This document shows, piece by piece, positions 6,637 through 64,000 of a stretch of DNA of 64,000 bases (the first letter of the stretch is position 1; each line of letters opens with the position of its first letter). The notes beneath the pieces were generated by a model. It was not told the DNA's origin and ran no database searches. It was given only the letters and a program-made list of their open reading frames with translations. Origin of the DNA: Streptomyces sp. I6. Its GTDB lineage: Bacteria; Actinomycetota; Actinomycetes; Streptomycetales; Streptomycetaceae. Position numbers and translations under genes: made by a program. The stretch covers positions 1,147,501-1,211,500 of the forward strand of contig RHDP01000001.1 in the NCBI GenBank assembly GCA_003725745.1. The letters run 5' to 3'.

Positions 6637-7433
6637 ATGCTCTCGGAACCACGTTCAGGACGCCTGGCCGCCTGGGGGAACGCCCTCTCGGCCGGATTCG
6701 TATCGCCGGACGACGCGGTGACCGCGATCGTCGGGGAGGACGCGGTGCACCGCGTGGCAGGACTCCCCGGCGAGAACGGGCCGGTGGGGCTCACGCTGGC
6801 GCTGGGGCGGCTGCGCGCGGCCGGGGTGCGGGGGTTCCGGGTGGCCCTGCCCGCGCCCGGGCATCCGCTGGGGCTGAGCGGGCCGCCGGAGTTCAACGCG
6901 CGGGCGCTGGAGGCGCGGGAGGCGGTGGTCTGCCACGGGGCGGCGTACGGCCTGGTGCCCGAGGTGCGCGAGACGGGTCCGGACGGCGATGTGCACGTCG
7001 GTGTCGTCTGGCACTGCCTGCCGGTGCGGGAGGGAGTGCCCGCCGACGTCCCCTCCCTCGGCGAGGCGGAACGGGAGCTCGCCGAGGGGCTGCGGGAGGC
7101 GACGGAGGTGCTGTCGCGGCTGGACGTGGCGGCCTCCGGGCCGGTGGCCGAGGCGGCGCTGGGCGCGTACCGGGCGCGGGCGGAGCCGAAGGCGGCCCGC
7201 GAGGTACTCGCGCCCGGGTACCCGCCCCGGGCGGCACGTGTCCTGGAACTGGCCCGGCGGATCGGACTCCTGCTGTCCCTGGCGTACGAGAACGGGCACG
7301 GCGGGGCGATGAGCGCGTCGGAGATGGCGGCCCGGGGGCGGCTCTGCGTCCGGTGGAGCGCGTGGCGCGGCGGGCGCAGGTGGCGGCGTACAACGCCTAT
7401 GTGGAGGACCTGGAGCGCCGGGCGGATCGCTGA
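6637..7433 (+). CDS. Conserved hypothetical protein (one frameshift)
   Basis: I do not recognise a function. From ATG 6637 the protein reads MLSEPRSGRLAAWGNALSAG, then a Val/Ala/Leu-rich domain of about 230 residues with no membrane segment or catalytic motif I can name. Near 7331-7339, in a CCCGGGGG run, the coding frame jumps by one missing base. The natural C terminus (ALRPVERVARRAQVAAYNAYVEDLERRADR region) continues in another frame to the stop at 7433. Without the shift the frame runs on into a repeat-rich, arginine-rich tail, which is the sign that the shift is an error. Confidence 0.65.
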
Positions 7434-7438
7434 CGGGC

Positions 7439-7522
7439 GCGGAGGGGCGAGGCGCGGGCAGGGCCCGGGGTCTCCGGGTCCGGGCGAGGCGCGGAGGGGC
7501 GAGGCGCGGGCAGGGCCCGGGG
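7439..7522. repeat. 32-bp direct repeat, 52-bp period
   Basis: The 32-base block that starts GCGGAGGGGCGAGGCGCGGG occurs at 7439-7470 and again, identical, at 7491-7522. This is a tandem duplication of about 52 bases in the space after the unknown gene. Confidence 0.85.
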
Positions 7523-7552
7523 GCGGTCGACCGGTGGCGGGGGCGCGGCCGG

Positions 7553-7595
7553 GCGCCCGACGGACCCCGGGCACGGTCCGGGGTCCGTCGGGCGC
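7553..7595. terminator. Bidirectional terminator near the chaplin gene
   Basis: An 18-base perfect stem (left arm GCGCCCGACGGACCCCGG) with a 7-base loop lies between the convergent unknown gene and the chaplin gene, 24 bases beyond the chaplin stop. Confidence 0.8.
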
Positions 7596-7618
7596 TGCCG
7601 GAGAGCCGGGCGGCTCGC

Positions 7619-7861
7619 TCAGCCGTTGACGCCCGTGTTGCCGAAGGCCGGGTTCAGGGCGCCGATGACGTTGACCGTGTTGCCGACGGCGTTGACCGGG
7701 ACGTGGATCGGCGCCTGGATCAGGTTGCCGGAGCCGACGCCCGGGGAGTGCGTGGCGTGGCCGTCCGCGTGCGCGCTGGTGGCGGACGCGACACCGGCGC
7801 CTGCGGCGACGATGCCGCCGGCGACCATGGAGACGGCGAGGGCCTTCTTCAGGTTCTTCAC
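7619..7861 (-). CDS. chpE: Short chaplin lacking both cysteines (ChpE-like)
   Basis: An 80-aa secreted chaplin, one of the amyloid surfactant proteins that coat aerial hyphae. A Sec signal peptide (MKNLKKALAVSMVAGGIVAAG to about ASA/TSA) is followed by a single chaplin domain: GNLIQAPIHVPVN, VGNTVNVIGALNPAFGN, TGVNG. The two cysteines that most chaplins form into a disulfide are Ala and Gly here. In S. coelicolor the cysteine-free short chaplin is ChpE, so the symbol is given on that basis and on neighbouring genes. It forms its own unit on the minus strand. Confidence 0.88.
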   Translation of the reverse strand: MKNLKKALAVSMVAGGIVAAGAGVASATSAHADGHATHSPGVGSGNLIQAPIHVPVNAVGNTVNVIGALNPAFGNTGVNG

Positions 7862-8056
7862 TTCGGGATCCTCCTAGGCGTCACCGCGGCGGGACCGCCG
7901 CGGCTCGCCCTGGAGAACGCCCGGGGCGCACCCGGGATACGCCGTGTGGGCGACATACACACGACGGTATGAACCTCACACCGGCAGGAACCGGTCCGCT
8001 TTCCTGCCCGGATGACCTGCCGAGTGACCTGCCGAAACGTTCCGATCAGCCCGGAG

Positions 8057-9893: not shown

Positions 9894-10097
9894 GGGATCA
9901 CCGTACCCGGGTGCCGTGACGGTGCGTATCGGCCTGTGGACGGCGGCGGAACCGGTCCCTGGGCCTAGGTCGAAGTGCCCTGGGCGGTAGGGGCGCTGGG
10001 ACGAGGCGGCGGGGCCGGCGTCGGGGCCAGCCTGGACGGCATACGGAAGGGCGGCGCGGTACGGGAACGGCGTCGCGGTACGAGTGAGGGGTGTGCC

Positions 10098-10792
10098 ATG
10101 CCGGTCGCGATCATCACGGGGCCTCGAAGGGGCTCGGGTACGCGCTGGGGGCCGCGCTCGCGCGGCGCGGCTGGGATCTGGTGCTGGACGCGCGGACGGC
10201 GCCGGTCCTGGAGGCGTCGGCCGGGGAGCTGCGCCGGTACGGGACGCGGGTGACGGCGGTGCCCGGGGACGTCACGGACCCGCGGCACCGCGCCGGGCTG
10301 GTGTCCGCGGCCCGCGAGCTGGGCGGTTCCCTCGACCTGCTGGTGAGCAACGCGAGTGCGCTGGGTGCCGAGCCGCTGGTGCGGCTGGAGGAGCTGCGGC
10401 CGGACGCTCTGCGGTCGGCGCTGGAGACCAACGTGGTGGCGGCGCTGGGGCTGGTACAGGAGGCGCTTCCGCTGCTGCGTGCCGGTGCGCCGGGCGCGGT
10501 GGTCGCGGTCTCTTCGGACGCCGCGGCCGGGGCGTATGAGACCTGGGGCGGTTACGGGGCGTCGAAGGCGGCGCTCGACCAGCTGGCGGCCGTGCTGGCG
10601 GTGGAGGAGCCGGAGCTGCGGGTGTGGGCGGTCGACCCGGGCGACATGCGCACGGATCTGTACGCGGCGGCGGTGCCGGACGACGACGGCCCGAGGCCGG
10701 AGCCGGACGAGGTGGTGCCGGGGTTCCTGCGGCTGCTGGACGAGCGGCCGCCGAGCGGCCGCTACACCGCCGCGGTGGCGGCCCGGCGATGA
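10098..10792 (+). CDS. Short-chain dehydrogenase/reductase (one frameshift)
   Basis: An SDR of about 231 aa. MPVAIITG begins at ATG 10098. One base is missing in the GGGG at 10118-10121, after which the other frame continues ASKGLGYALGAALARRGWDL, completing the TGxxxGxG cofactor motif across the shift. Later motifs are VSNAS, the catalytic Ser in VSSDAA, YGASK, and DPGDMRTDL. The substrate is unknown. The stop overlaps the ATG of the QueA-like gene (ATGA), so the two are a coupled pair. Confidence 0.82.
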
Positions 10793-11892
10793 GCGTGCCG
10801 GAGGACCTGCGGGTGCCGGACGGGCTGTCGGCGCGGGTCCCGGCGGAGGAGCGCGGGGCGGGGCGGGACGACGTGCGGCTGATGGTGTCGCGCGGTACGG
10901 CCGTGGCGCACCACGCGTTCCGCGAGCTGCCCGGGCTGCTGCGGGCCGGGGACGTGCTGGTGGTGAACACCTCCACGACCCTGCCCGCGGCTGTGAACGC
11001 GCGGCTGGGCGGGGAGCGCCTGGTCGTCCACTTCTCCACGCGGGGGGACACGGGCCCTCCGGGGCGGTCCCGGAGGGAGGGCTGTGGGCGGTGGAGCTGC
11101 GGTCGCCGGACGGGGCGGGCAGCACGCTGCCGAGGGCGGGAGGCCCGGCGGGTGCGCGGGTACGGCTCCCCGGGGGCGGGGTGCTCGTGCCGCTGGAGCC
11201 GCTGCTGGAGGGATCGCCCCGGCTGTGGTGGGCCGCGGTGTCGGTGGACGTGCCCGCGCTGCTGGCGCGGTACGGCAGGCCGATCCGGTACCGCTACACC
11301 GAGCGGGACCAGCCGCTCTCCGCGTATCGGACGGTGTTCGCCCTGCCGGCGCCGGACGGGTCGGGCTCGGCCGAGATGCCGAGCGCGGCGCGTCCCTTCA
11401 CCGAGCCGCTGGTGGCGGAGCTGGTGCGGCGGGGGGTGCAGTTCGCCCCGGTCACGCTGCACACGGGGGTGGCTTCGGCGGAGGCGCACGAGCCGCCGTA
11501 CCCGGAGCGCTTCGAGGTGCCGGCGGCCACGGCGTGGCTGGTGAACGCGGCCCGTGCGAGTCGGCGGGCCGGTGGGGCGGGCGCGTCGTGGCGGTCGGGA
11601 CGACGGCGGTGCGTGCGCTGGAGTCGGCGGCGGGGCCGGACGGTGCGGTGCGTCCGGCGGCGGGCTGGACGGATCTCGTCGTCACGCCCGCTCGGGGGTG
11701 CGCGTGGTGGAGGGCCTGCTGACCGGCCTGCACGAGCCCGCGGCGTCCCATCTGCTGATGCTCGAGGCGGTCGCCGGACGCGCGGCGCTCACCCGGAGCT
11801 ACGCGGAGGCGCTGCGGCGCCGCTATCTCTGGCACGAGTTCGGCGACGTCCATCTCCTCCTCCCGGGCGAGGACGCCCACGGAGCACATTGA
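10789..11892 (+). CDS. S-adenosylmethionine:tRNA ribosyltransferase-isomerase-like protein (three frameshifts)
   Basis: The reconstructed product of about 368 aa is QueA-like. N-terminal [29 protein letters not shown] and [19 protein letters not shown] are followed by [31 protein letters not shown] and [10 protein letters not shown]. The frame moves by one missing base near 11042-11060, 11566-11582 and 11694-11698. Classical QueA makes epoxyqueuosine in tRNA, but no other queuosine gene lies here and actinobacteria usually lack the pathway, so the true role is open. It is coupled to the SDR gene. Confidence 0.8.
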
Positions 11893-12201
11893 CGCTCACG
11901 GAGAGCATTGCGGAAGCAACGGAAGGTGAGAGCACCCGGGGTGCGGTGTGAGCCCGCACATAGGACCCACATCACTTACGAAGCACGCTAGTGGCTACAT
12001 AAAGGACATGTGAGCAGGCCAGGGTGTGCAGAGTGTGCAACTTGTCCGAATTTGGGGCTTCCCGCCCCACTACCCGGGATCGTATGTCACACCTTTGCCA
12101 CAGCATTTTGCTGCCGCTAAGAATTGCGTCCGTCGCCGCCGAGCAGGCGCTGCGCCGCCCAGGCCGAAGCGACTCCCGCTATTCGAAGAGGTACGTCTCG
12201 C
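11893..12201. other. Intergenic region upstream of the SLT-type gene
   Basis: About 310 bases with lower GC than the genes around it. It holds a short GGGGCTTCCCGCCCC hairpin at about 12052-12066 and presumably the promoter and 5' leader of the secreted protein. I looked for a c-di-AMP (ydaO-type) riboswitch, which often precedes such cell-wall genes, and could not find its conserved boxes. Confidence 0.4.
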
Positions 12202-12939: not shown

Positions 12940-12957
12940 CGGACGCGGGTCACACCG

Positions 12958-13016: not shown

Positions 13017-13021
13017 TCGTC

Positions 13022-13125: not shown

Positions 13126-13161
13126 CCGGTACCGCGTGGACGCCCGGGTGGCGGGAGCCCG

Positions 13162-15709
13162 CTACTTGCGCATGACCTCCGGCTCATGGCGGCGCAGGAA
13201 GCGGGCCACGAGGAAGCCGCACAGCGCGCCGAGCGCCAGCAGAGCCGCCATGTCCAGGCCCCACGCCCCGGCCTCGTGGTCCCAGAGCGGGTCGGTGTTG
13301 CCCGGGTCGTCCTGGTCGGGCCTGATCCTGTTGAGGTCCAGGGTGGCGCCGGCCGCCGCGACCGCCCAGCGGGACGGCATCAGATACGAGAACTCGTTCA
13401 CGCCGATGGTGCCGTTGAGGGTGAACAGGCAGCCGGTGAACACGAGCTGGACGACAGCGAACATCACCAGCAGCGGCATGGCCTTCTCGGCGGTCTTCAC
13501 CAGCGCCGAGATGACCAGGCCGAACATCATCGAGGCGAATCCGAGCGCCATGATCGGCAGCGAGAGTTCCAGCAGCGTCGCCGAGCCGAGGACCAGCCCC
13601 TGCTCGGGGATCTCCCGGGCGGCGAAGCCGATGGCGCCGACCAGGGCACCCTGGAACACGGTGATCATGCCGAGGACGATCACCTTGGACATCAGATAGG
13701 CGGAGCGCGACAGGCCGGTCGCCCGCTCCCGCTCGTAGATCACCCGTTCCTTGATCAGCTCGCGGATCGAGTTGGCGGCGCCGGCGAAGCAGGCGCCGGC
13801 CGCGAGGATCAGCAGCACCGTGGTCGCCGTGCCGTTGGGGACGATCCTGCCGGTCTGCGGGTTCACACCGTTGGGCAGCAGCCCCTTGTCCAGATCGATG
13901 AGCAGGCTCACCGCGCCGATGACGGCCGGCACGAGCACCGACAGCGCGAGGAAGCCCCGGTCGGAGGAGATCACCGAGACATAGCGCCGCATCAGGGTGC
14001 CGAGCTGGGAGAACCACCCCTGCGGCTTCGGCGGCCTGATCGCCTGGGGCGGCGGCATGTGCACCGACTGCGCGGCGACGGCGTCGATGTCCGCGGCGTA
14101 CATCTGGAAGTGCTGCGAGCCCTTCCAGCGGCCCGCCCAGTCGTAGTCGCGGTAGTTCTCGAAGGCGGAGAACACGTCGGCCCAGGTCTCGTAGCCGAAG
14201 AAGTTCAGCGCCTCCTCCGGCGGGCCGAAGTACGCCACCGAGCCGCCGGGCGCCATCACCAGCAGCTTGTCGCACAGCGCCAGCTCGGCCACCGAGTGGG
14301 TGACCACGAGGACGGTGCGTCCGTCGTCGGCGAGTCCGCGCAGCAACTGCATGACGTCGCGGTCCATGCCCGGGTCGAGGCCGGAGGTCGGCTCGTCGAG
14401 GAAGATCAGCGACGGTTTGGTCAGCAGCTCCAGGGCGACGGAGACGCGCTTGCGCTGGCCCCGGAGAGGGAGGTGACCTTCTTGCCCTTGTGGATGTCGA
14501 GCTTCAGCTCGCGCAGCACCTCGTCGATGCGGGCCTCGCGCTCGGCCGCCGTGGTGTCCGCCGGGAAGCGCAGCTTGGCCGCGTAGGTGAGCGCCTTCTT
14601 GACGGTCAGCTCCTTGTGCAGGATGTCGTCCTGCGGGACCAGACCGATGCGCTGGCGCAGCTCGGCGAACTGCTTGTACAGGTTCCGGTTGTCGTAGAGC
14701 ACATCGCCCCGGTCGGCGGGGCGGTAGCCGGTGAGCGCCTTGAGCAGGGTCGACTTGCCGGACCCGGAGGGGCCGATGACCGCGATGAGCGACTTCTCCG
14801 GGACGCCGAAGGAGACGTCCTTGAGGATCTGCTTGCCGCCGTCGACCGTGACCGTGAGATGGCGGGCGGAGAAGGACACCTCACCGGTGTCGACGAACTC
14901 CTCGAGGCGGTCGCCGACGAGCCGGAACGTCGAGTGGCCGACGCCGACGGTGTCGTTCGGGCCGATGAGCGCGGTGCCGGACTTGGCCAGCGGCTGGCCG
15001 TTGACGTAGGTGCCGTTGTGCGAGCCGAGGTCGCGGATCTCGAAACGGCCGTCGGGCGTCGCGTGGAACTCGGCGTGGTGGCGGGAGACCTGGAGGTCGG
15101 AGACCACCAGGTCGTTCTCCAGCGCACGGCCGATGCGCACCACCCGGCCCAGGGGCAGCTGGTGGAACGTGGTGGGGCTGCGGTCGCCGTGCACCGGCGG
15201 GGCCCCGCGGGGCCGGAGGGCGTCTCGCTGGCCTGGTGGCCGTGCGGGGCCTGCTGGTGCGGTACCCGGGCGGCGGGCGGCTGCTGCCCCTGCTCCCGGG
15301 GCGCCTGCTGCCGGGCCCAGCCCTGGTGGGCGGGGCCCTGCTGCCCCGACGGGACGGTGCCGGCCTGCTGCGGAGCGGTTCCCTGTGCGCTGTACGCGCC
15401 GGCCTCGGCGCCGGACAGGCTCAGCCGCGGGCCGTCGCTGGCGTTGCCGAGGTGCACCGCGGAGCCGGGGCCGAGCTCCAGCTGGTGGACGCGCCGGCCC
15501 TGCACATACGTGCCGTTGGTGCTGCCGTGGTCCTCGAGGACCCAACTCCAACCGCTCCAGCTGATCGTGGCGTGCCGCCACGACACCCGGGCGTCGTCGA
15601 TCACCACGTCACCCTGGGGGTCCCGCCCCAGGGTGTACGACCTGGACGGATCGAGGGTCCAAGTCCTTCCGTTCAATTCCAGTACGAGTTCCGGCACTCC
15701 ATGCCCCAC
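13162..15709 (-). CDS. FHA-ABC transporter fusion, Rv1747-like (two frameshifts)
   Basis: A protein of about 848 aa once two missing bases are restored (about 15195-15213 and the CCCC at 14459-14462). Domain order: FHA1 (YTLGRDPQGD, WRHA, GSTNGTYV), Gln/Pro-rich linker, FHA2 (VRIGRALEND, SRHHAEF, GSHNGTYV), ABC ATPase (GPSGSGKST, LSGGQRKRVS spanning the second shift, LDEPTSGLD), and an ABC-2 permease with about six helices. This matches mycobacterial Rv1747, whose FHA domains read phospho-threonines set by a Ser/Thr kinase. It likely exports a cell-envelope component under kinase control. Confidence 0.85.
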
Positions 15710-21875: not shown

Positions 21876-22732
21876 ATGAGGACGGACCACGGCGGAGGCG
21901 GCGGCGGTACGAACGGCGGTGAGGCGGAGCTCTCCGACAGCCTGAGGACCTTCGGCGTCGTCCTGAAGGCACTGCGGGAGGAGTCCGGCCTGACGCAGGA
22001 GGAGTTCGCGCGACGGGTGCGGTACTCGGCCGCGTATGTCGCCAAGATCGAGCAGGGCAAGCGGTTCCCCCGGCGGACCTGCCCGCACGGGCGGAAGAGG
22101 TACTGGGACCGGTCGCGCTCAAGGTCCTCACCGCGGCGGCGAAGAGCCTGACGCGGAGGGCGGGGCTGGCATCGTGGTTCCGGCAGTGGGCGGGGGTCGA
22201 GGAGGAGGCGATCTCCCTGTACGCGTACGAGTGCCGGGCGGTACCGGGGTTGCTGCAGCCGGAGGGGTACATCCGGGCGGTGTTCGAGCGCAATCTGCCG
22301 CCGCTCTCACAGGAGCAGGTCGAGCGGCAGGTATGCGCGAGGCTGGAGAGGCAGGACCTCCTGGCGATTCGGCCGAACACCGCCTTCAGCTTCATCATCG
22401 AACAAGGCATTCTGGAACGGCGTGTTGGAGGGTCCACCATCGTGAGAGAAGTCATCGATCACCTTCTCCACGTTGGGCAGCGGCACAACATCGAGATCCA
22501 GGTCATGCCGCTTCGGCAAGAGGACCACTGTGGTGTGGAGGGACAGATGTACCTGGCCGAGACGCCGTCCCACCAGTGGATCGGCTACACCGAGGGGCAG
22601 CGGTCTAGCAACCTGATCACTGCCCCGAACGACCTGAGTGTCCTCCTCCAGCGCTATGGCACACTGCGTTCCCAGGCCTTGGACTGCCGGGCTACCGCGA
22701 GCCTGCTGAAACGGATGCGAGGAGCACTATGA
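21876..22732 (+). CDS. XRE-family regulator, WhiJ-like (one frameshift)
   Basis: A regulator of about 285 aa. The N-terminal helix-turn-helix reads LRTFGVVLKALREESGLTQE, then EEFARRVRYSAAYVAKIEQG. One base is missing in the CCCCC at 22067-22071. The other frame continues ADLPARAEEVLG and then the DUF5753-type domain: SWFRQWAGVEEEAISLYAYE, VPGLLQPEGYIRAV and HNIEIQVMPL. It overlaps the first DUF397 gene (ATGA), the usual whiJ-type arrangement that controls development or antibiotic onset in relatives. Confidence 0.85.
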
Positions 22733-23344: not shown

Positions 23345-24867
23345 GTGGCCCATGAGATCGATCAGTCATTCCTGGCGCTGCCGCTGCGGGCGCTCGCCGA
23401 CGCGGCGCTGGCGCGGGCGCGTTCCCTCGGCGCCCAGCACGCCGACTTCCGGCTGGAGCGGGTGCGCAGCGGCTCGTGGCGGTTGCGGGACGCGAAGCCG
23501 GCCGGCTCGTCCGACACCACCGATCTGGGGTACGCGGTGCGGGTGGTGCACGGCGGGGCCTGGGGGTTCGCGTCCGGTGTCGATCTGACCCGGACGCCGC
23601 CGCCAGGGTGGCGGGGCAGGCCGTGGCGATGGCCAGGCTGTCGGCGAAGGTGATCGCGGCCGCCGGCTCGGACGAGAGGGTCGAGCTGGCCGACGAGCCG
23701 GTGCACGCGGACCGCACCTGGATCTCCTCGTACGAGACCGACCCGTTCGACGTCCCGGACGAGGAGAAGTCCGCGCTGCTCGCGGACTGGAGCGCGCGGC
23801 TGCTGCGGGCGGACGGCGTGGCCCACGTGGACGCCTCGCTGCTGACCGTGCACGAGAACAAGTTCTACGCCGACACCGCGGGCACGGTCACCACTCAGCA
23901 GCGGGTGCGGCTGCATCCGCAGCTCACGGCGGTCGCGGTGGACCAGACGACCGGCGAGTTCGACTCCATGCGCACCATCGCGCCGCCGGTGGGACGCGGC
24001 TGGGAGTACCTGACCGGCACCGGCTGGAACTGGGACGCGGAGCTGGAGGAGATCCCTGAGCTGCTGGCCGCCAAGATGCGCGCGCCGAGTGTCGAGGCGG
24101 GGACGTACGACCTGGTCGTGGACCCGTCGAACCTGTGGCTGACGATCCACGAGTCGATCGGGCACGCCACCGAGCTGGACCGGGCGCTGGGCTACGAGGC
24201 GGCGTACGCGGGCACCTCCTTCGCCACCTTCGACCAGCTCGGGAAGCTGCGCTACGGCTCGGCGGTGATGAACGTGACCGGGGACCGGACCGCGGAGCAC
24301 GGGCTGGCGACGGTCGGGTACGACGACGAGGGCGTGCAGGCGCAGAGCTGGGACCTGGTGCGCGACGGCACGCTGGTCGGCTACCAGCTCGACCGCCGGA
24401 TCGCGCGGCTGACGGGCCTCGGCCGCTCCAACGGCTGCGCCTTCGCCGACTCGCCGTCGCACGTCCCGGTGCAGCGGATGGCGAACGTGTCGCTCCGTCC
24501 GGAACCGGGCGGACTGTCGACGGAGGACCTGATCGGCGGGGTGGAGCGCGGCGTCTACGTCGTCGGGGACCGGTCCTGGTCGATCGACATGCAGCGGTAC
24601 AACTTCCAGTTCACCGGCCAGCGCTTCTACCGCATCGAGAACGGCCGGCTGGCCGGGCAGCTGCGCGATGTCGCCTACCAGGCGACGACGACCGATTTCT
24701 GGGGGTCGCTGGAGAAGGTCGGGGGCCCGCAGACGTATGTCCTGGGAGGCGCCTTCAACTGCGGCAAGGCCCAGCCGGGCCAGGTCGCGGCCGTCTCGCA
24801 CGGCTGCCCGTCCGCGCTGTTCCGCGGCGTCAACATTTTGAACACCACCCAGGAGGCCGGTCGATGA
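23345..24867 (+). CDS. tldD: TldD family metalloprotease (one frameshift)
   Basis: A subunit of about 507 aa of the TldD/TldE protease, which degrades unfolded peptides and matures some peptide natural products. N terminus: GTG 23345, MAHEIDQSFLALPLRALADA. One base is lost in CCC at 23589-23591, after which VDLTPDAAARVAGQ continues in the next frame. The zinc site HESIGHATELD (HExxxH) marks the active subunit. Other motifs are GLATVGYDDEGV, RTNG-like GRSNGCAF, and NFQFTGQRFYRIENG. The stop overlaps the tldE start (ATGA). Confidence 0.9.
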
Positions 24868-50887: not shown

Positions 50888-51826
50888 ATGACGGCGGCCG
50901 AGGGCTGGACCGAGGCCGTACGGGCCCGGCTGCGACCGGGCAGACTGCTACCGCTCGGCACTCCGGAGGACGGCGCCTGGCTCGCGGAACAGGCCGCCGA
51001 AAAGGTGCTGCGGCAAGCCGCCATGAGGGTGCCGGGCGTGGTACCCGGCCTTATCCGGGTGGGGCTCGCCGACCCCGGCCGGGCCGGGGCTCCGACCGTC
51101 CCGCCTCCCCCTGCCGCGCTGCCGCCGGGCCCCCTCCGGATCGAGGCCGAGTTCGCGGCCGTCGGCGCGGTGCCCCTGGCCGAGCCGGCGGGGCTGCTGC
51201 GCAGGGCGCTGTTCGCCGCCGCCGGGGAGCGGCTCGGGCTGCGGGTCGCGGCAGTGGATCTCCGGATCACGGCCCTGCTGGACGTGCCTCCGGAACCGGA
51301 CGGGGAGCGGACGCCGGCGGACGCCGGCACACCCCCGGTCGCCGGTCCGGCCGCCGCCGGGCCGCGCAATGCGGGTACGGACGACACGGGTACGGACAGG
51401 GCGGGTACGGACGACACGGGTACGGACAGGGCGGGTACGGACGACACGGACAGGGATGACACGGACAGGGACGGGGCGCGGGCCATCGATCGCGGGCGGC
51501 AGCCGAGGCAGGCGGCCGCCACTGAGCCGGACGGCACGGAAGGCACCGGGGACCGGCTCCCGGGAGCCCATCCCGGAGCGGGTTCCATGACTCCGGCGGG
51601 TGCCGTCGCCGCCGCGGCGGCCGCCGTTCCGGGCGTCGCCCGGCTCACCGGCACGCTCGGGACGGCCTTGTGGGCCGACGAGCCGTCCGTCCGGGTCGAA
51701 TGCGCGACGGCGCCGGGCCATCGTCCCGTGGAGGTGGCCCGCGCGGTCCGCGCCGCGGTCGTCTCGGTGCTGCCGTCGCCGCTTCCCGTGACGGTCCTCG
51801 TCATGGAGGTCGGCCTCGGCGAATGA
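50888..51826 (+). CDS. Two-module Asp23-like protein with repeat linker
   Basis: About 312 aa, divergent from the Asp23 operon. An N-terminal Asp23-like module (AAEKVLRQAAMRVPGVVPGL, LRIEAEFAAVGAVPLAEPAG) and a C-terminal one (AAAAAVPGVARLTGTLGTAL, VRVECATAPGHRPVEVARAV) flank a low-complexity Gly-Thr-Asp linker encoded by a 30-base tandem repeat. ATG 50888 ends a 6-codon mini-ORF (ATG 50871 to TGA 50889-50891) in CGATGA. TTG 50831 in frame is a longer alternative. Confidence 0.7.
   Translation: MTAAEGWTEAVRARLRPGRLLPLGTPEDGAWLAEQAAEKVLRQAAMRVPGVVPGLIRVGLADPGRAGAPTVPPPPAALPPGPLRIEAEFAAVGAVPLAEPAGLLRRALFAAAGERLGLRVAAVDLRITALLDVPPEPDGERTPADAGTPPVAGPAAAGPRNAGTDDTGTDRAGTDDTGTDRAGTDDTDRDDTDRDGARAIDRGRQPRQAAATEPDGTEGTGDRLPGAHPGAGSMTPAGAVAAAAAAVPGVARLTGTLGTALWADEPSVRVECATAPGHRPVEVARAVRAAVVSVLPSPLPVTVLVMEVGLGE
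51371..51460 (+). repeat. 30-bp tandem repeat inside the Asp23-like gene
   Basis: The unit GCGGGTACGGACGACACGGG plus TACGGACAGG is repeated exactly at 51371-51400 and 51401-51430, with a partial third. It encodes AGTDDTGTDR repeats and keeps the reading frame. Confidence 0.9.
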
Positions 51827-53147: not shown

Positions 53148-53833
53148 CCGTGCCTCCTCATGGGAAGTGCGCTCTGGACTCTCATGATCACCCCTACCGG
53201 GCTTCATGGCCACCCATTCGACAAGGTCCGTGCGACGAGCTTCGGCGGCGGCACATGCCCGAGCGCCACCGGAATACAATATTCCGATGATCGCCGGCAG
53301 GGGGTTTCAGCGGTCCGGAGGCCGAAATTCCAGGTCAGAGGCGCCCTCGTCGACATTGCTGGGCAATGGGGGTGACGCACCGTCGCCGCGGACCGCCACG
53401 CCGGGGTACGAGACGCACTCACTCAGATGAAGGATCAGAGCTGAGCCGAATGATCCATACGGAGTGGATCAGTCCGGATGAATCCTCCCGGCTCCCGTCC
53501 CTACCCGGACGTGCCCCCGGGTCCCTGCTTCCCCGCGGCCCCTCTGGGCGACCCCCTCGGCGGTCCGGGGCGGCGGCCCCTCGCGTCGGGGTGGGGCAGG
53601 AAGCCCGCCCGGGCCCCGGGGCCCGGGCATGGGGCCTTCCCCGGAGCCCGGGGCTCCGGGGAAGCGTCGCACCCGGAGGCTCGCCCTCGTACCGGGGAAG
53701 CACCAGGGCGCCTCGACCGCGCGGCGAGGAGCCGTCCGGGGCGTCGCGAGCCGGTGGCCTCCAGGCCGCGGCGCCAGGTCTACCGCCCGGGAACGTGGGA
53801 ACGGTGATCCACCAGGCTGGGCAGTACAGCCGG
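53148..53833. other. Intergenic region with large palindromes
   Basis: About 690 bases without a supported gene; long open frames here are GC-bias artefacts. It holds AT-richer sequence near 53270-53290 and 53430-53480 (probable promoters) and two strong palindromes at 53607-53628 and 53636-53664. Confidence 0.5.
53607..53664. terminator. Adjacent palindrome and hairpin, possible terminator
   Basis: A perfect 22-base palindrome built from GCCCGGGCCCC is followed 7 bases later by a 13-base stem (CTTCCCCGGAGCC with GGCTCCGGGGAAG) around CGG. It lies 170 bases after the ABC-F stop; it may end that transcript or have another role. Confidence 0.6.
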
Positions 53834-55432
53834 CTAGGCCAGCGCGACGAGATCCGCGTAGTCCTTGCCCCACAGGTCCTCGACCCCGTCCGGCAGCAGA
53901 ATGATCCGCTCCGGCTGCAGGGCCTCGACCGCGCCCTCGTCGTGGGTCACCAGGACGACCGCTCCCTTGTACGTGCGCAGCGCGCCGAGGATCTCCTCGC
54001 GGCTGGCCGGGTCGAGGTTGTTGGTCGGCTCGTCGAGCAGCAGGACGTTCGCCGAGGAGACCACCAGGGTGGCCAGCGCCAGCCGCGTCTTCTCCCCGCC
54101 CGAGAGCACCCCGGCCGGCTTGTCGACGTCGTCGCCGGAGAACAGGAAGGACCCCAGCACCTTGCGGACCTCGACGAGGTCGAGATCGGGCGCGGCGGAG
54201 CGCATGTTCTCCAGGACCGTGCGGTCCGGGTCGAGCGTCTCGTGCTCCTGGGCGTAGTAGCCGAGCTTCAGTCCGTGGCCCTCCAGGACCTCGCCGGTGT
54301 CGGGCTTCTCCACCCCGCCGAGAAGCCGCAGCAGGGTGGTCTTGCCGGCGCCGTTGAGGCCGAGGACGACCACCCGGGAGCCCTTGTCGATGGCCAGGTC
54401 GACGTCGGTGAAGATCTCGAGCGAGCCGTAGGACTTGGACAGCCCCTCCGCCGTCAGCGGGGTCTTCCCGCAGGGCGCCGGCTCGGGGAAGCGCAGCTTC
54501 GCGACCTTGTCGGAGAGGCGCACCTCCTCCAGACCGGCCAGCAGCCGCTCGGCACGGCGGGCCATGTTCTGGGCGGCGACGGTCTTGGTGGCCTTGGCCC
54601 GCATCTTGTCGGCCTGGGCGTTGAGCGCCGCGGCCTTCTTCTCCGCGTTCTGGCGCTCGCGCCTGCGGCGCTTCTCGTCGGCCTCGCGCTGCTGCTGGTA
54701 GAGCTTCCATCCCATGTTGTAGACGTCGATCGTGGAGCGGTTGGCGTCCAGGTAGAAGACCTTGTTGACGACGGTCTCCACGAGGTCGACGTCGTGGGAG
54801 ATGACCACGAAGCCGCCGCGGTAGGTCTTGAGGTACTCGCGCAGCCAGACGATCGAGTCGGCGTCGAGGTGGTTCGTGGGCTCGTCGAGCAGGAGCGTGT
54901 CGGCGTCCGAGAACAGGATCCGCGCGAGTTCGACACGGCGCCGCTGGCCGCCGGAGAGGGTGTGCAGCGGCTGTCCGAGTACCCGGTCGGGCAGGTTGAG
55001 CGCGGCGGCGATGGTGGCCGCCTCGGACTCGGCCGCGTACCCGCCCTTGGTCAGGAACTCGGTCTCCTGGCGCTCGTACTGGCGGAGCGCCTTCTCGCGG
55101 GTGGTGCCCTTGCCGGTGGCGATGCGGTGCTCGTTCTCCCGCATCTTGCGGATCAGGACGTCGAGGCCGCGGGCGGAGAGGATGCGGTCCCGGGCGAACA
55201 CGTCGAGGTCGCCGGTGCGCGGGTCCTGCGGCAGATAGCCGACCTGGCCCGATCGGGCGATCTGGCCGCCGGCGGGGATGCCCTCGCCGGCGAGGCACTT
55301 GGTGAGGGTCGTCTTGCCCGCTCCGTTGCGGCCCACCAGGCCGATGCGGTCGCCCTTGGCGATACGGAAGGTGGCGGACTCGATGAGGACGCGGGCGCCG
55401 GCACGCAGCTCGATGCCGGAAGCGGTGATCAC
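53834..55432 (-). CDS. ABC-F family ATPase (ribosome-associated)
   Basis: A 532-aa protein of two ABC domains and no membrane segment. First domain: GRNGAGKTT, LSGGQRRRVELARILF, LLLDEPTNHLDADS. Then the charged P-site-tRNA-interaction linker (READEKRRRRERQNAEKKAA). Second domain: GLNGAGKTT, LSGGEKTRLALATLVV, DEPTNNLDPAS. ABC-F proteins act on ribosomes in translation or antibiotic protection. GTG at 55432 opens MITASGIELRAGARVLIESA. Confidence 0.94.
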   Translation of the reverse strand: MITASGIELRAGARVLIESATFRIAKGDRIGLVGRNGAGKTTLTKCLAGEGIPAGGQIARSGQVGYLPQDPRTGDLDVFARDRILSARGLDVLIRKMRENEHRIATGKGTTREKALRQYERQETEFLTKGGYAAESEAATIAAALNLPDRVLGQPLHTLSGGQRRRVELARILFSDADTLLLDEPTNHLDADSIVWLREYLKTYRGGFVVISHDVDLVETVVNKVFYLDANRSTIDVYNMGWKLYQQQREADEKRRRRERQNAEKKAAALNAQADKMRAKATKTVAAQNMARRAERLLAGLEEVRLSDKVAKLRFPEPAPCGKTPLTAEGLSKSYGSLEIFTDVDLAIDKGSRVVVLGLNGAGKTTLLRLLGGVEKPDTGEVLEGHGLKLGYYAQEHETLDPDRTVLENMRSAAPDLDLVEVRKVLGSFLFSGDDVDKPAGVLSGGEKTRLALATLVVSSANVLLLDEPTNNLDPASREEILGALRTYKGAVVLVTHDEGAVEALQPERIILLPDGVEDLWGKDYADLVALA

Positions 55433-55953
55433 GGAAAGACTCCAGGACGGATGGACGGCGGAAGGACGACGGGCGCGCGGAGGCTTCGACGCCGTCTAAT
55501 CCATGAGGAGAATTGCCATGCGGCCAGTCTACCGGGACCGGGCAACCGGATTTCTGTGGCGCTGACCACGGCGCCCGGGCGCCCGCGGCGCGGAAGGTCC
55601 CGGCGCAGCGGAGTGGGAGCGGCCGGGACACCGCGACCGGGGCAGGCCCGGGTCCGGTCCCGGGGCCGAGGGGCCGGAAGTCCGGTGGGCGCGACGGGGG
55701 TTCGGCCCGGGGCGCGGGCAGCCGGGCGGAAGCCCGGGCAGGCCGGCACGTGGTTCCACCAGGGCTCCCGCACCAGGTGGCGTGACCTGGTGCGACACCT
55801 TCCGCGGAACCGCCGCGGCGGCCGCAGGGCGGTGTCCGTACCCCCTGCCGGACCGGGACGCGGGTCACCCGTCATCGCGCGGAGAGTACGCACGTCCGCA
55901 GCACCCGGAACACGGAGTCCGGAACACCCGGAACACGGAGTGGAGATCCTGGA
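55433..55953. other. Intergenic region with short tandem duplications
   Basis: No gene is supported. ACCCGGAACACGGAGT occurs at 55903-55918 and 55926-55941. GGAGTGGAGATCCT is exactly duplicated at 55937-55964, running into the glyoxalase remnant. Confidence 0.6.
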
Positions 55954-56070
55954 GTGGAGATCCTGATGCCGCCCACCGACCGGGACTACGGCGCCCGGGA
56001 CCACACGGCCGGCGATCCGGAGGGGAACGTCTGGAGCTTCGGCACGTACCGGCCGCGACCGCGGGCGGGC
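55954..56070 (+). pseudogene. C-terminal remnant of a glyoxalase-like (VOC) protein
   Basis: The frame reads MEILMPPTDRDYGARDHTAG, then DPEGNVWSFGTYRP. The RDYGAR...DPEGNVWSFGTYRP tail is the characteristic end of VOC/glyoxalase-family proteins. No matching N-terminal three quarters exists upstream, and the frame continues past the usual end. A tandem 14-base duplication lies at its left edge. It is best read as a relic left by a deletion. Confidence 0.6.
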
Positions 56071-56141: not shown

Positions 56142-57658
56142 TCAGGAGCCTCCGGTGTGCACCTGGAACGCCGCCCGCCTGACGGCCTTCGCCAGGGCCG
56201 GGTCGGGGTGCGCGGCCGCGAGGGCGACCAGGACCTGCACGGTGCGCGGATGGCCGACGGCCCTGACCTCGTCGAGCAGGGCGGGTACGGTCCCCTGCAC
56301 CGCGGAGTCCAGATGGCGCACCAGCAGGGCGCTCTCGCCGTGGTCGGCGACGGCGGCTGCGGTGTCCACCCAGAGCCAGGTCGCCTCCTCCCGGGTGAGC
56401 ACCTCGGCGGCGTCGTCGGGATCGGCTCCCTCGTACTCGGCCAGCCACAGCAGGGCGTAGGGGCGCAGCGAGGGCTCGTCGGCCGCGGCGCGGACATCGG
56501 CCTCGGCGGCCGCTCCGACGACCCGGAGGGCGTCGAACGCCAGGCCGCGCAGCAGGGCGTCCTCACCGCGGGCGGCGGCCACGAGTTCGGTGACCGCGCT
56601 GGACACGGTACGGGCGGCGAGCCAGGCCCGGTACTCGGCACGGGCGGGGCCGGGGCTCAGCCGGGCGCAGCCCCGCAGCATCTCTTCGGCGGACTGCTCG
56701 ATGTGGCCCGCGGGGCTCTGGGCGGCGACGCAGATCTGCTCGAGCTTGACCCACACGGCCCAGTTGCCGAGCGGGGTGAGGGTGGCGTGGCCCTCGCCGA
56801 GGGTCAGTGCGCCGACGGCGGCGAGGCCCTCCAGGGCCCAGTCCAGCAGGGCAGGGAGTACGGCTTCGGGCGGGTCGGCGAGGACGGCGGCCCCCGTGGC
56901 GGCGTCCTCATCGACGCCCGCATCGACGCCCGCATCGGCTTCGGCAGGGGCTGCCGCGTCGGCGGGGACGGGGAAGGGGACGGGGACGGCTTCGGTGGCG
57001 GCGGTCGCGTCGGCTGCGGCAACTTCGGCAGGGGCGGCTTCGGCAGGGGCGGGGAGGGGTCCGTAGGGCACCTCGCAGCGTTCCTCGCGCAGTTCCGCCA
57101 CCCGCTGCCGGAGCAGATCGAGCAGCGCCGGCAGGAGCACGGGCCCGGCGGACAGCTGGAGGAGCGAGAGCACCTGGGGGACGGCCTCCACCGCCTCGGC
57201 GACGGCGCCGGGCGCCACGTCGGCGGGGGCCGGGTGCACGAGGGGCCAGGCGTCGAAGAGGGCGACCCAGCCGCGCAGTACGGCGGCGTCGTCCCGGTCC
57301 CAGGCGTTCAGCCGCCAGCCGGGGCGTGCCGTGCCTCCGTGCAGTTCCACGAGCCCGGCGAGCCGGGCGCGGTCCCAGCCCGCGTGGACCTGTCCCGGTG
57401 TCAGGCGCAGTTCCCCGGCGGCCCGGTCCCGGTCGGCGGCGCTGCCCTCGGCGTGCTGGGCGGCCGCCCAGTGGGCGACGCGCACCGCGTCGGCGAGGAC
57501 CTCGCGTGCCTGGCCGGCCAGCTCCGCGATCGGTGGGGTTCCCTCGGGGGGCGCGGAGCGGGGCGCGTGCGCCTGTTCGTCGCGGCGCGGCGGGCCGTGG
57601 CGGTGGGCCGTGGGCGGACAAGACGGAGCCTGGAGTCGCGCAGGTTACGGGACGTCAC
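56142..57658 (-). CDS. Conserved hypothetical protein (probable frameshift near N terminus)
   Basis: An Ala-rich protein of at least 447 aa (from GTG 57485). The N-terminal part looks helix-turn-helix-like (LTPGQVHAGWDRARLAGLVE). The middle has a low-complexity Ala/Pro/Glu/Val linker (about residues 148-205), and the C terminus has HEAT-like helices (LLRHLDS-type, VPALLDEVRAVGHPRTVQVL). An upstream frame from GTG 57658 (MTSRNLRDSRLRLVRPRPTA) could be the true start, joined by one missing base near the G run at 57546-57551. I recognise no function. Confidence 0.6.
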
Positions 57659-57836: not shown

Positions 57837-58962
57837 TCACACCAGGGGGGTGAGGAAGCGCCGGAGGGCCTCCTCGTAGCGGGCCGGGTCGGCGTTCCAC
57901 ATGGCCGCGTGCGGGGCGTGCGCCACGGTCTGCAGGCTGACCAGGTCGGGCCGGCGGGCCGCCAGCTCCCGGGACGGGCCCCAGGGGGCGATGGTGTCGT
58001 CCGGGCCGTGGAAGACCAGGATGGGCACCCGCAGGGCGTCCGGATCGGCGGCCGCCCTCAGCCGGTCGCCGTGGAGTCCGGTGCGCCCCTGCGCGGCGCG
58101 TACGGCGAGCGGGAGCAGGGCGGCCGGCATCCGGCGGGCGGCGGCGAGGGAGCGCAGGGTGGTCTCCCACTCCAGGATCGGGGAGTCCAGCACGAGTCCC
58201 GCGATCCGCTCGCGCAGCGCGGAGTGGGCGGCGGCGTGCAGCGCCATCGACGCGCCGGTGGACCAGCCGTGCAGGATCACGCGGTCCGCGCCGCCGCGGA
58301 CCGCGAAGCGTACCGCCGCGTCGAGGTCGCGCCATTCGGAGTCGCCGAGGTGCCCGAGGCCGTCGGGGGGCGGGGGCGCGCCGGGGTCGCCGCGGTAGGC
58401 GGGCGCCAGCACGGGGAGGCGCTGCTCGGTGAGGAACGGCATCAGGTTCATCGTGAGTTCGCGCGTGGTGCCCAGGCCGTGCACCACGATGACCCAGGTC
58501 GAGCGGGGCCGGGGACGAACCAGCCGGGCAGGGAGCCGAGTTCGCCGGGAATGTCGACGTCCTCGTGGTCGATGCCGAGTGCGCTGCCCGGGTCGCCGAC
58601 GTGCAGCTGGGGGTGAGCCGCACCTTGACGCCGGGGTCGAGGCTGCCGAGCTCGACCCGCTCCAGCCGGCGGACCACGGTGTCGGCGGCGTGCGGCACCT
58701 GGTCCAGCACCGGACCGGCGACCGCGTGCACACCGTGCCCGCAGAGCCCGTAGGTGCCGGGGCGCCGGGAGACGAGGCTGCGGGTGAGGGTGACCCGGCC
58801 GGGGCCGGTGGCGTGCACGGTGAGCCGCCCCTCGCCGGGCAGGGGCCGTCCGGTGGGGGCCTTCAGCGCGGCGTCGCTGGCGTACCGGCCGGCGGCGAAC
58901 GCCGCCACGCCGAGGCCGATGAGGGTGGTGACGGCCGCTGCCGTCGCTGTTGCCGGGCGCAC
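57837..58962 (-). CDS. Membrane-anchored alpha/beta hydrolase (two frameshifts)
   Basis: A protein of about 376 aa. One N-terminal helix (AAAVTTLIGLGVAAFAAGRY) is followed by a long non-catalytic region, then the hydrolase fold: VIVVHGLGTT (oxyanion), ILHGWSTGASMAL with the nucleophile Ser in GWSTG, HGPDDTIAPWG (Asp), and VAHAPHAAMW (His). Missing bases at the G runs 58609-58613 and 58505-58508 split the middle (LHVGDPGSALGIDHEDVDIP lies between). Substrate unknown. Confidence 0.82.
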
Positions 58963-59021
58963 CGTTCCAGTGTGGTGAGGTCCGTGCCGGGGTGCCAGTG
59001 GGCCGGGCGGCGGGAGTGACG

Positions 59022-60110: not shown

Positions 60111-61413
60111 ATGGAGCACATCACCCTGCTGCTCGCGATTGTCGTCGTGACAGCACTCGTGTTCGATTTCACGAACGGCTTCCACGACACCGCCAACGCC
60201 ATGGCGACGACCATCTCGACGGGTGCGATGAGACCGAAGGCGGCAGTGGCGATGTCCGCCGTGCTGAACCTGGTCGGCGCGTTCCTCTCCGTCGAGGTCG
60301 CCAAGACGATCTCGGGCGGCATCATCAACGAGGAGGGCATCCGCCCAGAAGTGATCTTCGCCGCACTGGTCGGCGCGATCCTCTGGAACCTGCTGACCTG
60401 GCTGCTGGGCCTGCCCTCCAGCTCCTCCCACGCCCTCTTCGGCGGCCTCATCGGCGCGGCCGTGATGTCCGCCGGTTTCTCGGCCGTCAACGGCGGCACG
60501 ATCGTCACCAAGGTCCTGATCCCGGCCGTCGCGGCTCCGCTCGTCGCCGGTCTCGCGGCCCTGGTCGCCACCAGGCTGACGTACCGGATCGGCGGCACCA
60601 CCGAGGACCGGTCCACCTCCAAGGGCTACCGCGCCGGCCAGATCGCCTCGGCCGGCCTGGTGTCCCTCGCCCACGGCACCAACGACGCGCAGAAGACCAT
60701 GGGCGTCATCACCCTGGCCCTGGTCACCGGCGGCGTCCTCGCGCCCGGCTCGAACCCCCGATGTGGGTCATCGTCTCCGCCGGTGTCGCGATCGCGCTCG
60801 GCACCTACCTCGGCGGCTGGCGCATCATCCGCACCATGGGCAAGGGCCTGACCGACCTCCAGCCGCAGCAGGGCTTCGCCGCGCAGACCAGCGCCGCGAC
60901 GGTCATCCTGGCCTCCTCGCACCTCGGCTTCTCGCTCTCCACCACCCAGTCCTGCTCGGGTGCCGTGATGGGCGCGGGCCTCGGCCGCAAGGGCGGTGTG
61001 GTCCGGTGGTCCACCGCCACCCGGATGTTCGTCGCCTGGGGGCTGACCCTGCCCGCCGCCGGCCTCGTCGCCGCGGCCGCGGAGTTCCTGACCAAGCAGG
61101 GCACCTGGGGCATCGCCGCCGTGGCCGTACTGCTCGTCGCGGGCTCCGGGGCCATCTGGGTGATCTCGCGCCGCAAGCCGGTCGACCACACCAACGTCAC
61201 GGACGACGAGATCGAGCCCGCGGGCGTCGTCACCACCGCCATCGCGGCCGTCTCCCCGCCCCGGCCGGCGCCCCCGCGCCCCAGGCGACCGAACCCGGCG
61301 CCGCGGCGCCGAACGCCGCCGCCGGGACCGCGGCGACCGAGCCCGGGACGCCGAGAACCACCGTCCCCGCCCAGTCCTCCGAGTCCGCTCCGGCGCCCGC
61401 CGCCACGGTGTAA
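60111..61413 (+). CDS. pitH2: Low-affinity inorganic phosphate permease PitH2-like (two frameshifts)
   Basis: A PiT-family symporter of about 434 aa. The repeated PiT signatures are FTNGFHDTANAMATTISTGA and LAHGTNDAQKTMGVITLALV. About ten helices are visible. Bases are missing in the CCCCC at 60755-60759 (APGSNPPMWVIVSAG restored) and around 61252-61275, after which the tail TEPGAAAPNAAAGTAATEPG ends at 61413. A PHO box lies upstream. The symbol rests on resemblance to S. coelicolor pitH2, also PHO-regulated. Confidence 0.88.
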
Positions 61414-61425
61414 GGAAAGAACGAC

Positions 61426-61646
61426 ATGAAGATCGACTGGGCAGCTCTGGGCTCCGTCTTCGGCGTGAGCCTCGTCGTGACCGTCGCCCTGGTGGGCCTG
61501 TTCACCCTGGCATCGCGGGCCTCTCCAAGCAGGAGGCGGCGGCCGCGCGGGGAGGCTCGGCCGGCCTCGCCCGCACGGGCGCGTACGCCTGCTTCGCGCT
61601 CTGCGCGGCGGCGGTGGCCTTCGGGATCTACCTGATCGTGGTCTGA
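61426..61646 (+). CDS. Small two-helix membrane protein behind the PiT gene (one frameshift)
   Basis: Starts MKIDWAALGSVFGVSLVVTV, ALVGLFTL. A base is missing near GG at 61509-61510, and the other frame continues GIAGLSKQEAAAARGGSAGL, ARTGAYACFALCAAAVAFGI, YLIVV, stopping at 61646. Two helices face a short Lys/Gln/Arg-containing loop. It follows the permease by 12 bases and is a constant neighbour of it in streptomycetes, as far as I recall. Confidence 0.78.
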
Positions 61647-61710
61647 CGCCGCACGACCTCGTACCGGGGCCGGGCACACCTACCGGGTGGGCCCGGCCCC
61701 GGCCGTGTGC

Positions 61711-61743
61711 GCGCACCGCCCCCGCGCCGCGGGGGCGGTGCGC
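61711..61743. terminator. Hairpin between the PiT operon and the cob region
   Basis: A 15-base perfect stem (left arm GCGCACCGCCCCCGC) around GCC, 64 bases after the small-protein stop. A weaker GGGGCCGGGC stem precedes it. Confidence 0.72.
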
Positions 61744-61789
61744 CCCGTCCCGTCGCAGGTCAAGGGCGAGTTGACGGGCGTTCGGGGCC

Positions 61790-61960
61790 CGTGGTGGACT
61801 TCCGGGGCCACTTACGGCGGCAGAAGAGGAAGCCGGTGCGAATCCGGCGCGGTCCCGCCACTGTCACGGGTGCGCTCCCCTCGCGGAGCACCAGGGAGCA
61901 CCCCGGAGCCAGGAACTCCTCGCCGCCGGTCACGTCGAGCCAGGGCGCGGACCCTGAGTG
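61790..61960 (+). promoter_or_regulatory. Cobalamin (B12) riboswitch
   Basis: The conserved core is evident: GGAAGCCGGTGCGAATCCGG, then GCGGTCCCGCCACTGT (B12 box). GAGCCAGGAACTCCT and a closing GCCAGGGC follow downstream. It lies directly before cobD and should lower expression of the cob operon when adenosylcobalamin is plentiful. Borders are approximate. Confidence 0.9.
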
Positions 61961-61969
61961 AGGACGAAC

Positions 61970-62952
61970 ATGCCTGCCGAAGCAGGGGGCCGGCTCCGCC
62001 GCGCCCGGACATCACGTTCGCGTACGGCGCCGCCGCCGGGCTGGCCGGTGACCTGCTCCTCGGCGATCCACGCCGCGGGCACCCGGTCGCGGGCTTCGGC
62101 CGGGCGGCCGCCGCGGTCGAACGGGGACTCTGGCACGACCACCGCGGCTGGGGCGCCCTGCACACCGCGGTGTGCGCCGGCGCCGCGGTCGCCGCGGGCG
62201 CGCTGGCCGCGGCATCCGCGCGCCGGTCGCGCGGCGCCTCCGTCGCCCTGACCGCGGCCGCCACCTGGGCCGTCGTCGGCGGCACCTCGCTGGGCCGGGA
62301 GGCACGCGCGGTCGGCGCGGCGCTGGCGTCCGGGGACCTCGACGACGCCAGGGAGCGGCTGCCGCGTCTGTGCGGGCGCGACCCGCAGGCGCTGGACGGC
62401 CCCGGCATCGCCCGCGCCGTCGTCGAGTCCGTCGCCGAGAACACCTCGGACGCCGTGGTGGGCGCCCTCGTCTGGGGCGCGATCGGCGGGGTTCCGGGCC
62501 TGCTCGGGTTCCGCGCCGTCAACACCCTGGACGCGATGGTCGGTCACCGGTCCCCCCGCTACCGGCGGTACGGCTGGGCCTCGGCCCGGCTCGACGACCT
62601 CGCGGGCTGGCCCGGGGCCAGGCTCACCGCGGCGCTGGCGACCGTCGCGGGCGGCGACCCGCGCGGCGCGGCCCGCGCCTGGCGCCGGGACGCCGCGAAG
62701 CACCCGAGCCCGAACGCAGGCCCCGTGGAGGCCGCGTTCGCCGGGGCCCTCGGCGTACGGCTCGGCGGGACGCTGTCGTACGGCGGACGGGTCGAGCACC
62801 GGCCCGTACTCAACGGCGGCGGCGGACGGGCCGTCGGGACCGCCGACATCGAGCGGGCGGTGCGGCTCTCGACGCGCGTGGGGGTGCTGGCGCTCGCGGT
62901 GTGCGCGGGCGGGCGCCTGGCGGCCGGGGCCCTGCGGCGGAGGCGCGCATGA
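61970..62952 (+). CDS. cobD: Adenosylcobinamide-phosphate synthase CobD/CbiB (one frameshift)
   Basis: A membrane enzyme of about 327 aa adding aminopropanol to adenosylcobyric acid. ATG 61970 (MPAEAGG) leads by one missing base in the G run at 61985-61989 to the frame [40 protein letters not shown]. Family motifs: [33 protein letters not shown] and [20 protein letters not shown]. It follows the B12 riboswitch and overlaps cobQ (ATGA). Confidence 0.9.
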
Positions 62953-64000
62953 GCGGGGGCGGACTGCTGGTCGCCGGCACCACGTCGGACGCCGGCAAGA
63001 GCGTCGTGACGGCGGGGATCTGCCGCTGGCTGGTGCGCCGGGGCGTGAAGGTCGCCCCCTTCAAGGGGCAGAACATGTCCCTCAACTCCTTCGTCACCCG
63101 TGAGGGCGCCGAGATCGGCCGGGCGCAGGCCATGCAGGCGCAGGCCGCCCGGGTGGAGCCGACGGCGCTGATGAACCCGGTGCTGCTCAAGCCCGGCGGG
63201 GACCGCTCCAGCCAGGTCGTGCTGATGGGCAGGCCGGTGGGCGAGCTGAGCGCGCGCGGGTTCTTCGGGAGGCCGGGACCCGCGACGAGGCCGGAACGGG
63301 GCGCCCGGGCCCCCGGAAGCCTGCCGGACGGGCCCGGGGGCACCCCCGTGGGGATGCTGCGCGGAGGGCGCCAGGAGGCGCTGCTCGAACCGGTGATGGC
63401 CTGCCTCGAGGAGCTCCGCGGCTCCCATGACGTGGTGATCTGCGAGGGCGCGGGCAGTCCCGCGGAGATCAATCTGCGGCGCACGGACATCGTCAACATG
63501 GGCATCGCCCGCGCCGCGCGGCTCCCCGTGCTCGTCGTGGGCGACATCGACCGGGGCGGGGTCTTCGCCCAGTTCTTCGGTACGACGGCGCTGCTGGCCC
63601 CCGAGGACCAGGAGCTGGTCGCCGGCTACCTCGTCAACAAGTTCCGCGGCGACGTCTCGCTGCTGGAGCCGGGGCTGGAGATGCTGCGCGGGCTCACCGG
63701 GCGGCGGACGTACGGCGTGCTGCCGTACGCGCACGGGCTCGGCATCGACGAGGAGGACGGGCTGCGGGTCTCCCTGCGCGGCGCCGTGCGCGAGTCGGCG
63801 GTGGCGCCGCCGGTCGGCGAGGACGTGCTGCGCGTGGCCGTCTGCGCCGTGCCGCTGATGTCCAACTTCACCGACGTGGACGCGCTGGCGGCCGAACCGG
63901 GCGTGATCGTGCGCTTCGTCGACCGCCCCGAGGAGCTGGCCGACGCCGATCTGGTGATCGTGCCGGGCACGCGGGGCACGGTGCGCGCCCTGGAGTGGCT
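62949..64000 (+). CDS. cobQ: Cobyric acid synthase CobQ (partial, runs off the window)
   Basis: 350 codons are visible and the frame is intact. The N-terminal P-loop-like amidotransferase domain reads [40 protein letters not shown] and [40 protein letters not shown] and [16 protein letters not shown] follow. The glutaminase domain would start near the window edge ([18 protein letters not shown]). Between SARG and GGRQEAL, where relatives have a couple of residues, about 33 extra Gly/Pro/Arg-rich residues are inserted. Confidence 0.94.

Follow-up and report, generated by a model that had tools for sequence, protein, structure and literature searches.

The window analysed here (G000:C1:1147501-1211500, 64,000 nt) is part of the Streptomyces sp. 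I6 assembly, whose 7,054,598 bases form 2 contigs. Its reading frames are repeatedly interrupted. When the intact open reading frames (ORFs) of related genomes were aligned base by base to the window DNA, 20 breaks were found in 13 genes, each corresponding to one base which is absent from the window by comparison with S. pacificus, S. wuyuanensis and others. All 20 lie no more than 3 bases from a G/C run of 3–5, and both strands are affected. An earlier note on this DNA had listed about 23 breaks in 16 genes, all of them read as single lost bases, mostly at G/C runs and on both strands. The direction, the association with runs and the occurrence on both strands are borne out at the 20 sites by the relatives' ORFs; the gene list is shortened, since no break is supported in the CoA transferase or CobD, and the gene at 56142 is no more than a candidate.

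The closest relatives used were S. pacificus CWH03 (G031) and S. wuyuanensis (G032), which are 94% and 92% identical, respectively, over a 2160-base test piece. Three more distant Streptomyces genomes (G005, G006 and G013) were also compared, giving five syntenic relatives in all. The completeness listed for the assembly is 87.42, despite just 2 contigs; among the 30 further genomes of the relatives set it is at least 93 in 28, and the remaining two (79 and 77) have 630 and 330 contigs.

Genes with a missing base

Family names were checked on the relatives' intact copies for the PiT, hydrolase, USP, OYE, subtilase, TldD, XRE/DUF5753, FHA-ABC and QueA genes; SDR and DUF397 are labels of the earlier note. 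The first break (7333, plus strand, G run) lies in a gene at 6637-7430 which has no Pfam family, and the window has one base fewer there than all five covering references. Near the start of the gene called SDR a base is missing at a G run at 10118 (plus strand; S. wuyuanensis and G006). The QueA-like gene (PF02547) has three breaks, each at a G run on the plus strand: 11054 (−1 against S. wuyuanensis, and +23 or +26, an equivalent frame change, against three other references), 11576 (two of four covering references, S. wuyuanensis giving −1 and G006 an equivalent +2) and 11698 (three of four covering references). The S. pacificus DNA that was fetched contains no aligned counterpart of 9999-11893, which holds the SDR and QueA-like genes and is present in S. 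wuyuanensis. The FHA-ABC transporter gene, on the minus strand, is broken at 14462 (G run on the coding strand; five of five covering references) and at 15206 (G/C runs; seen with S. pacificus and S. wuyuanensis, and as an isolated event in one of five covering references).

The next four genes are all on the plus strand, with breaks at C runs. They are the XRE/DUF5753 regulator (22067; S. pacificus, the sole covering reference), the second copy of the gene called DUF397 (23078; S. pacificus only), TldD (23590; five of five covering references), and a subtilase broken at 32980 (two of four covering references, S. pacificus and S. wuyuanensis) and again at 33843 (three of four). G runs, also on the plus strand, mark the breaks in the old-yellow-enzyme family gene (OYE, PF00724; 37740, S. 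pacificus only) and in the universal stress protein gene (USP), which has two (46423 and 46727; S. pacificus is the sole covering reference at both). The alpha/beta hydrolase gene on the minus strand lacks bases at C runs of its coding strand at 58508 (all five syntenic relatives; an isolated event in 12 of 30 covering references) and 58613 (four of the five; 17 of 30). C runs on the plus strand account for the remaining three: 60755 in the gene for the PiT phosphate transporter (PF01384; seen with 25 of 28 covering references), 61259 late in the same gene (an isolated −1 in two of 28 covering references, S. pacificus and L013, with an equivalent +47 against S. wuyuanensis), and 61509 in the small gene after PiT (seven of ten). 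The break at 61259 is the weakest of the list, the protein ends diverging past it.

Breaks 7333, 14462, 23590, 58508 and 60755 are shown by all five syntenic relatives. Those at 22067, 23078, 37740, 46423 and 46727 are supported by S. pacificus alone, no ORF of the other four having matched there. It is improbable that a few of the breaks are real pseudogenes or variable G/C tracts scattered among errors; the most likely to be so are those in the XRE regulator, DUF397, OYE and USP (twice).

Genes without a supported break and sites left uncounted

The CoA-transferase III gene (PF02515, 34426..35661, plus strand) is in a single frame and its stop is identical to that of S. pacificus. CobD (62002..62946, plus strand) is likewise in a single frame against all five relatives, and the frame switch at 62936 is its junction with the next gene; one base is possibly missing by comparison with S. 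wuyuanensis at 61984, ahead of the conserved part of CobD. The ORF at 56142..57485 (minus strand) is in one frame from 57485 on in comparison with four relatives, and shows a lone +1 with G005. At 57548 on the same strand, 63 bases ahead of this ORF's start and beside a G/C run, the window is one base short of seven out of seven relatives. This is a twenty-first missing base, lying either inside the 56142 gene or ahead of it.

The earlier note held that no inserted base was needed anywhere. In the filtered comparison described below no +1 occurs among 107 events; in the window a few extras appear relative to one or two references. Isolated +1 sites were found at 2604, 30137 and 56568, each against one relative only, and larger extras against one or two references at 40068 (+29), 41225 (+2) and 56866 (+17). 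A further pair, 63262 (+92) and 63356 (+4), also seen with one or two references, cancel out. In the ORF alignments with the five relatives, sites 2604, 3102, 16287, 26065, 30137, 48077, 53159, 53180, 56568, 57552 (the 57548 site) and 61984 were left out of the count; each was seen with only one or two of the five and, in addition, lay near an end or before the conserved start or did not appear against both close relatives. In the comparison with the wider set of references those left out were 26065, 40068, 41225, 56568, 56866, 57548, 63262 and 63356.

Two low-complexity stretches inside ORFs (51300-51590 and 57000-57060) are not of the same length as in either of the two close relatives. The plus-strand open frame at 53366-55966 is the shadow of a minus-strand ATPase gene with two ABC domains (53834-55432); used as a query it still located 49 loci, which were usable. 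At least one other of the ORFs scanned early may also be a shadow. The second contig of the assembly (G000:C2, 119031 bases) may be a plasmid; from a 4-kb piece of it about 1.2 kb matches S. pacificus closely (89%).

Frame-shift sign and gene junctions

A codon-model frame scan of the window gave 20 "lost" and 2 "gained" switches. The same scan of the five relatives (75–80 kb each) gave 59 "lost" and 14 "gained" together, with 8–15 "lost" apiece. Comparison with the relatives identified 9 of the 22 window switches as gene junctions: seven of the 20 "lost" (701, 10785, 24860, 31942, 49008, 49688 and 62936) and both "gained" (8755 and 44366). At 24864, 31940, 49006 and 49677 the stop of one of the relative's proteins and the start of the next share one window base, which is a 4-base overlap, and at 10785 the two S. 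wuyuanensis genes share exactly 4 bases. At 701 overlapping matches suggest a junction of two similar adjoining genes.

Because genes overlapping by 1 or 4 bases mimic a lost base, the sign of the shift is by itself no proof of undercalling. The earlier note's argument from a constant direction of shift is accordingly weaker than it seems. We rejected the frame scan as stand-alone evidence, the relatives being rich in "lost" switches too; counting shift signs misleads unless gene junctions are taken out beforehand. The idea that junctions of neighbouring or overlapping genes were misread as lost bases does hold for these nine switches, and for those nine only. It does not account for the 20 listed breaks, every one of which is crossed by an intact ORF from one relative or more, and as a general explanation it is highly unlikely.

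Two-way comparison with relatives

Insertions and deletions (indels) were compared in both directions; with S. pacificus ORFs as the starting point the matched coding DNA came to 512 kb in total. An event was retained when it was isolated by 90 bases, agreed in 36 or more of its 48 flanking bases, lay more than 24 bases from an end and fell in a gene with an identity of at least 0.75; events failing these filters were removed before counting. In region 1, 378 ORFs that are intact in S. pacificus (393 kb), set against the matching 544 kb, gave 82 events in 64 genes, 80 of which were −1 in the assembly, one −7 and one +35. The 80 represent 79 distinct places, 295530/295531 of the joined stretch having been counted on both strands. 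In reverse (430 ORFs from the assembly against S. pacificus) 52 of 54 events were one extra base in S. pacificus, one was +7 and one was a base missing there. Region 2, about 2.3 Mb away, behaved in the same way: with 132 S. pacificus ORFs (119 kb) 24 of 25 events, in 21 affected genes, were −1 and one −7, and in reverse 20 of 21 were +1 and one +7, with no single-base loss in S. pacificus among the 21. All ten events found with S. wuyuanensis ORFs against the window were −1.

In the window 12 events passed the filters, the coding DNA compared there being 45.4 kb, and in the other matched region-1 DNA 68 did so in ca. 347 kb; the window is not special within the matched region. That it shows 12 events instead of 20 is due to the filters plus a stricter match cut-off.

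Pooled over both regions, 104 of 107 isolated frame-shifting indels were −1 in the assembly (one of the 104 being the place counted twice) and none was +1. This is far from inserted and deleted bases in equal number, the pattern which the earlier note had named as contrary to undercalling. The same procedure applied to S. pacificus and S. wuyuanensis gave a single event in 57 genes (51 kb), and with S. wuyuanensis and G006 there were none in 52–53 genes (48 kb). These figures bear upon real pseudogene decay, by which many genes would have been lost by frameshift. The frames are really broken in the file, as decay would require, but single-base insertions are missing from all 107 events and the two relatives differ from each other by only one event in approximately 51 kb.

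Homopolymers

Seventy-nine of the 80 coding events from region 1 are no more than 3 bases away from a G/C run of 3 or longer, compared with 32% of random coding positions; for runs of at least 4 the figures are 58 of 80 and 8.6%. They occur on both strands. A run-length table was drawn up from G/C runs with equal flanks in this assembly and in S. pacificus. Among coding runs the fraction one base shorter in the assembly climbs with length, from 1/7169 at run length 3 to 13/1480 (4), 20/326 (5) and 12/40 (6), while those one base shorter in S. pacificus number 0/7155, 1/1489, 0/315 and 0/29, respectively. In DNA classed as non-coding by the model 10/710, 7/223, 9/58 and 4/10 runs of 3, 4, 5 and 6 are one base shorter in the assembly, and 3/734, 3/225, 1/52 and 3/6 in S. 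pacificus.

The sites are at homopolymers, as slippery sites often are, and one might suppose that the runs are truly shorter and that programmed frameshifting or transcriptional slippage rescues the proteins. However, non-coding DNA has losses also, most runs of equal length are unaffected (among six-base coding runs, 28 of 40), and the breaks are not conserved, the intact ORFs of relatives crossing the same places. We consider rescue of this kind so improbable that it can be set aside.

Core genes elsewhere in the genome

A search for rpoB found its sole locus spread over three frames, with bases missing at approximately 4011467 and 4012067 (G000:C1). The gene for ribosomal protein L3 (rplC) is broken once. 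Other broken genes, with NCBIfam names taken from the intact S. pacificus copies, include those for bifunctional PurH, alanine racemase (alr), FolD, succinate-CoA ligase alpha (sucD), tryptophan-tRNA ligase (trpS) and TruA. The search for further loci covered rpoB. RpoB and L3 are indispensable to a living cell. Pseudogene decay would have to extend to the sole rpoB locus and to rplC, both needed by a living cell, and taking this together with the indel counts we regard it as highly unlikely. A second dnaE-like gene, outside the window at G000:C1:1060438-1063762, is in three pieces, which is probably the same error. A 16S rRNA search of the genome returned no match, from which we conclude nothing, as the same search was positive in just 9 of the 14 control genomes.

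Origin of the breaks

We are close to certain, from the sequence comparisons, that the breaks are explained by undercalling of homopolymers in the assembly, where a fraction of the G/C runs has come out one base too short: the genes are normal in the organism and the breaks are confined to the file. Most likely a long-read consensus (the sequencing technology or platform is one that we infer) undercalled runs of approximately 4–6 bases, and most likely this consensus was incompletely polished with accurate reads. The grounds for undercalling are the one-sidedness of the −1 events in coding DNA, the dependence upon run length, the losses in non-coding DNA, the damage to rpoB and further core genes, and the completeness of 87.42 in an assembly of just 2 contigs. 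Losses are indifferent to coding status, although less one-sided in non-coding DNA, to strand, both being affected, and to essentiality, as rpoB and rplC demonstrate. The judgement of the earlier note that sequencing or assembly undercalling is at work rather than biology is accordingly upheld by the two-way comparison, the run-length rates, the non-coding losses and rpoB/rplC. This is an ordinary, known artefact.

Several observations weigh on the other side. The sites are known through comparison with the sequences of relatives. In raw blastn alignments of all aligned DNA with S. pacificus single-base indels are near balance, with 60 lacking and 50 extra, which we have taken as coming from intergenic and badly aligned stretches; it is the filtered coding comparison, with its isolated and well-flanked events, that tells the two apart. 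The stretches at 3.50–3.62 and 5.60–5.68 Mb, which are without a matched relative, gave 20.0 and 16.2 "lost" switches per 100 kb, not far from the 12.4–18.8 found in the relatives. Losses were met in the two matched regions 2.3 Mb apart, and 3.5 Mb, 5.6 Mb and contig 2 were covered by the frame scan alone. One coding run of 3 is a base longer in the assembly. Non-coding DNA is less one-sided, with 30 runs shorter here and 10 shorter in S. pacificus, and 7 longer here in the first table; a weaker bias is expected there since natural indels are tolerated. The density of G/C runs of at least 6 is below that of S. pacificus and not below that of S. wuyuanensis; being equally low in the latter, long-run density was not decisive as a test. 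Lastly, no break affects rpoC or the main dnaE, as is expected if just some genes are affected.

In consequence, the apparent pseudogenes in the window are almost certainly not to be believed. Measured against S. pacificus, 85 of the 510 genes compared (region 1, 64 of 378; region 2, 21 of 132) carry one or more isolated frame-shifting indels, nearly always a lost base. Gene content taken from this assembly is unreliable, and its pseudogene counts, claims of missing genes and completeness scores should be discounted.

Comparison with known systems

In published accounts, most indel errors of long-read drafts are false deletions, chiefly after 4–5 equal bases (Kastor, PMC12007338), and one such draft had 23.3% of its genes called as pseudogenes (PMC12007338). 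Nanopore consensus sequences are described as carrying homopolymer indels which often cause frameshifts, and the improvement from R9.4.1 to R10.4 as owed largely to homopolymers (PMC9262707). The assembly described here resembles the long-read assemblies of those accounts in having false single-base homopolymer deletions, often in runs 4–5 long, which fragment gene calls (PMC12007338, PMC9262707). It differs from the Kastor example, where A/T runs are the commoner (PMC12007338), in that G/C runs are affected, as expected at approximately 73% G+C. Genes that share 1 or 4 bases with a neighbour produce a frame change equal in sign to that of a lost base; unlike such overlaps, which fall at the end of one gene and the start of the next, as they do in the relatives, the 20 breaks sit inside genes.

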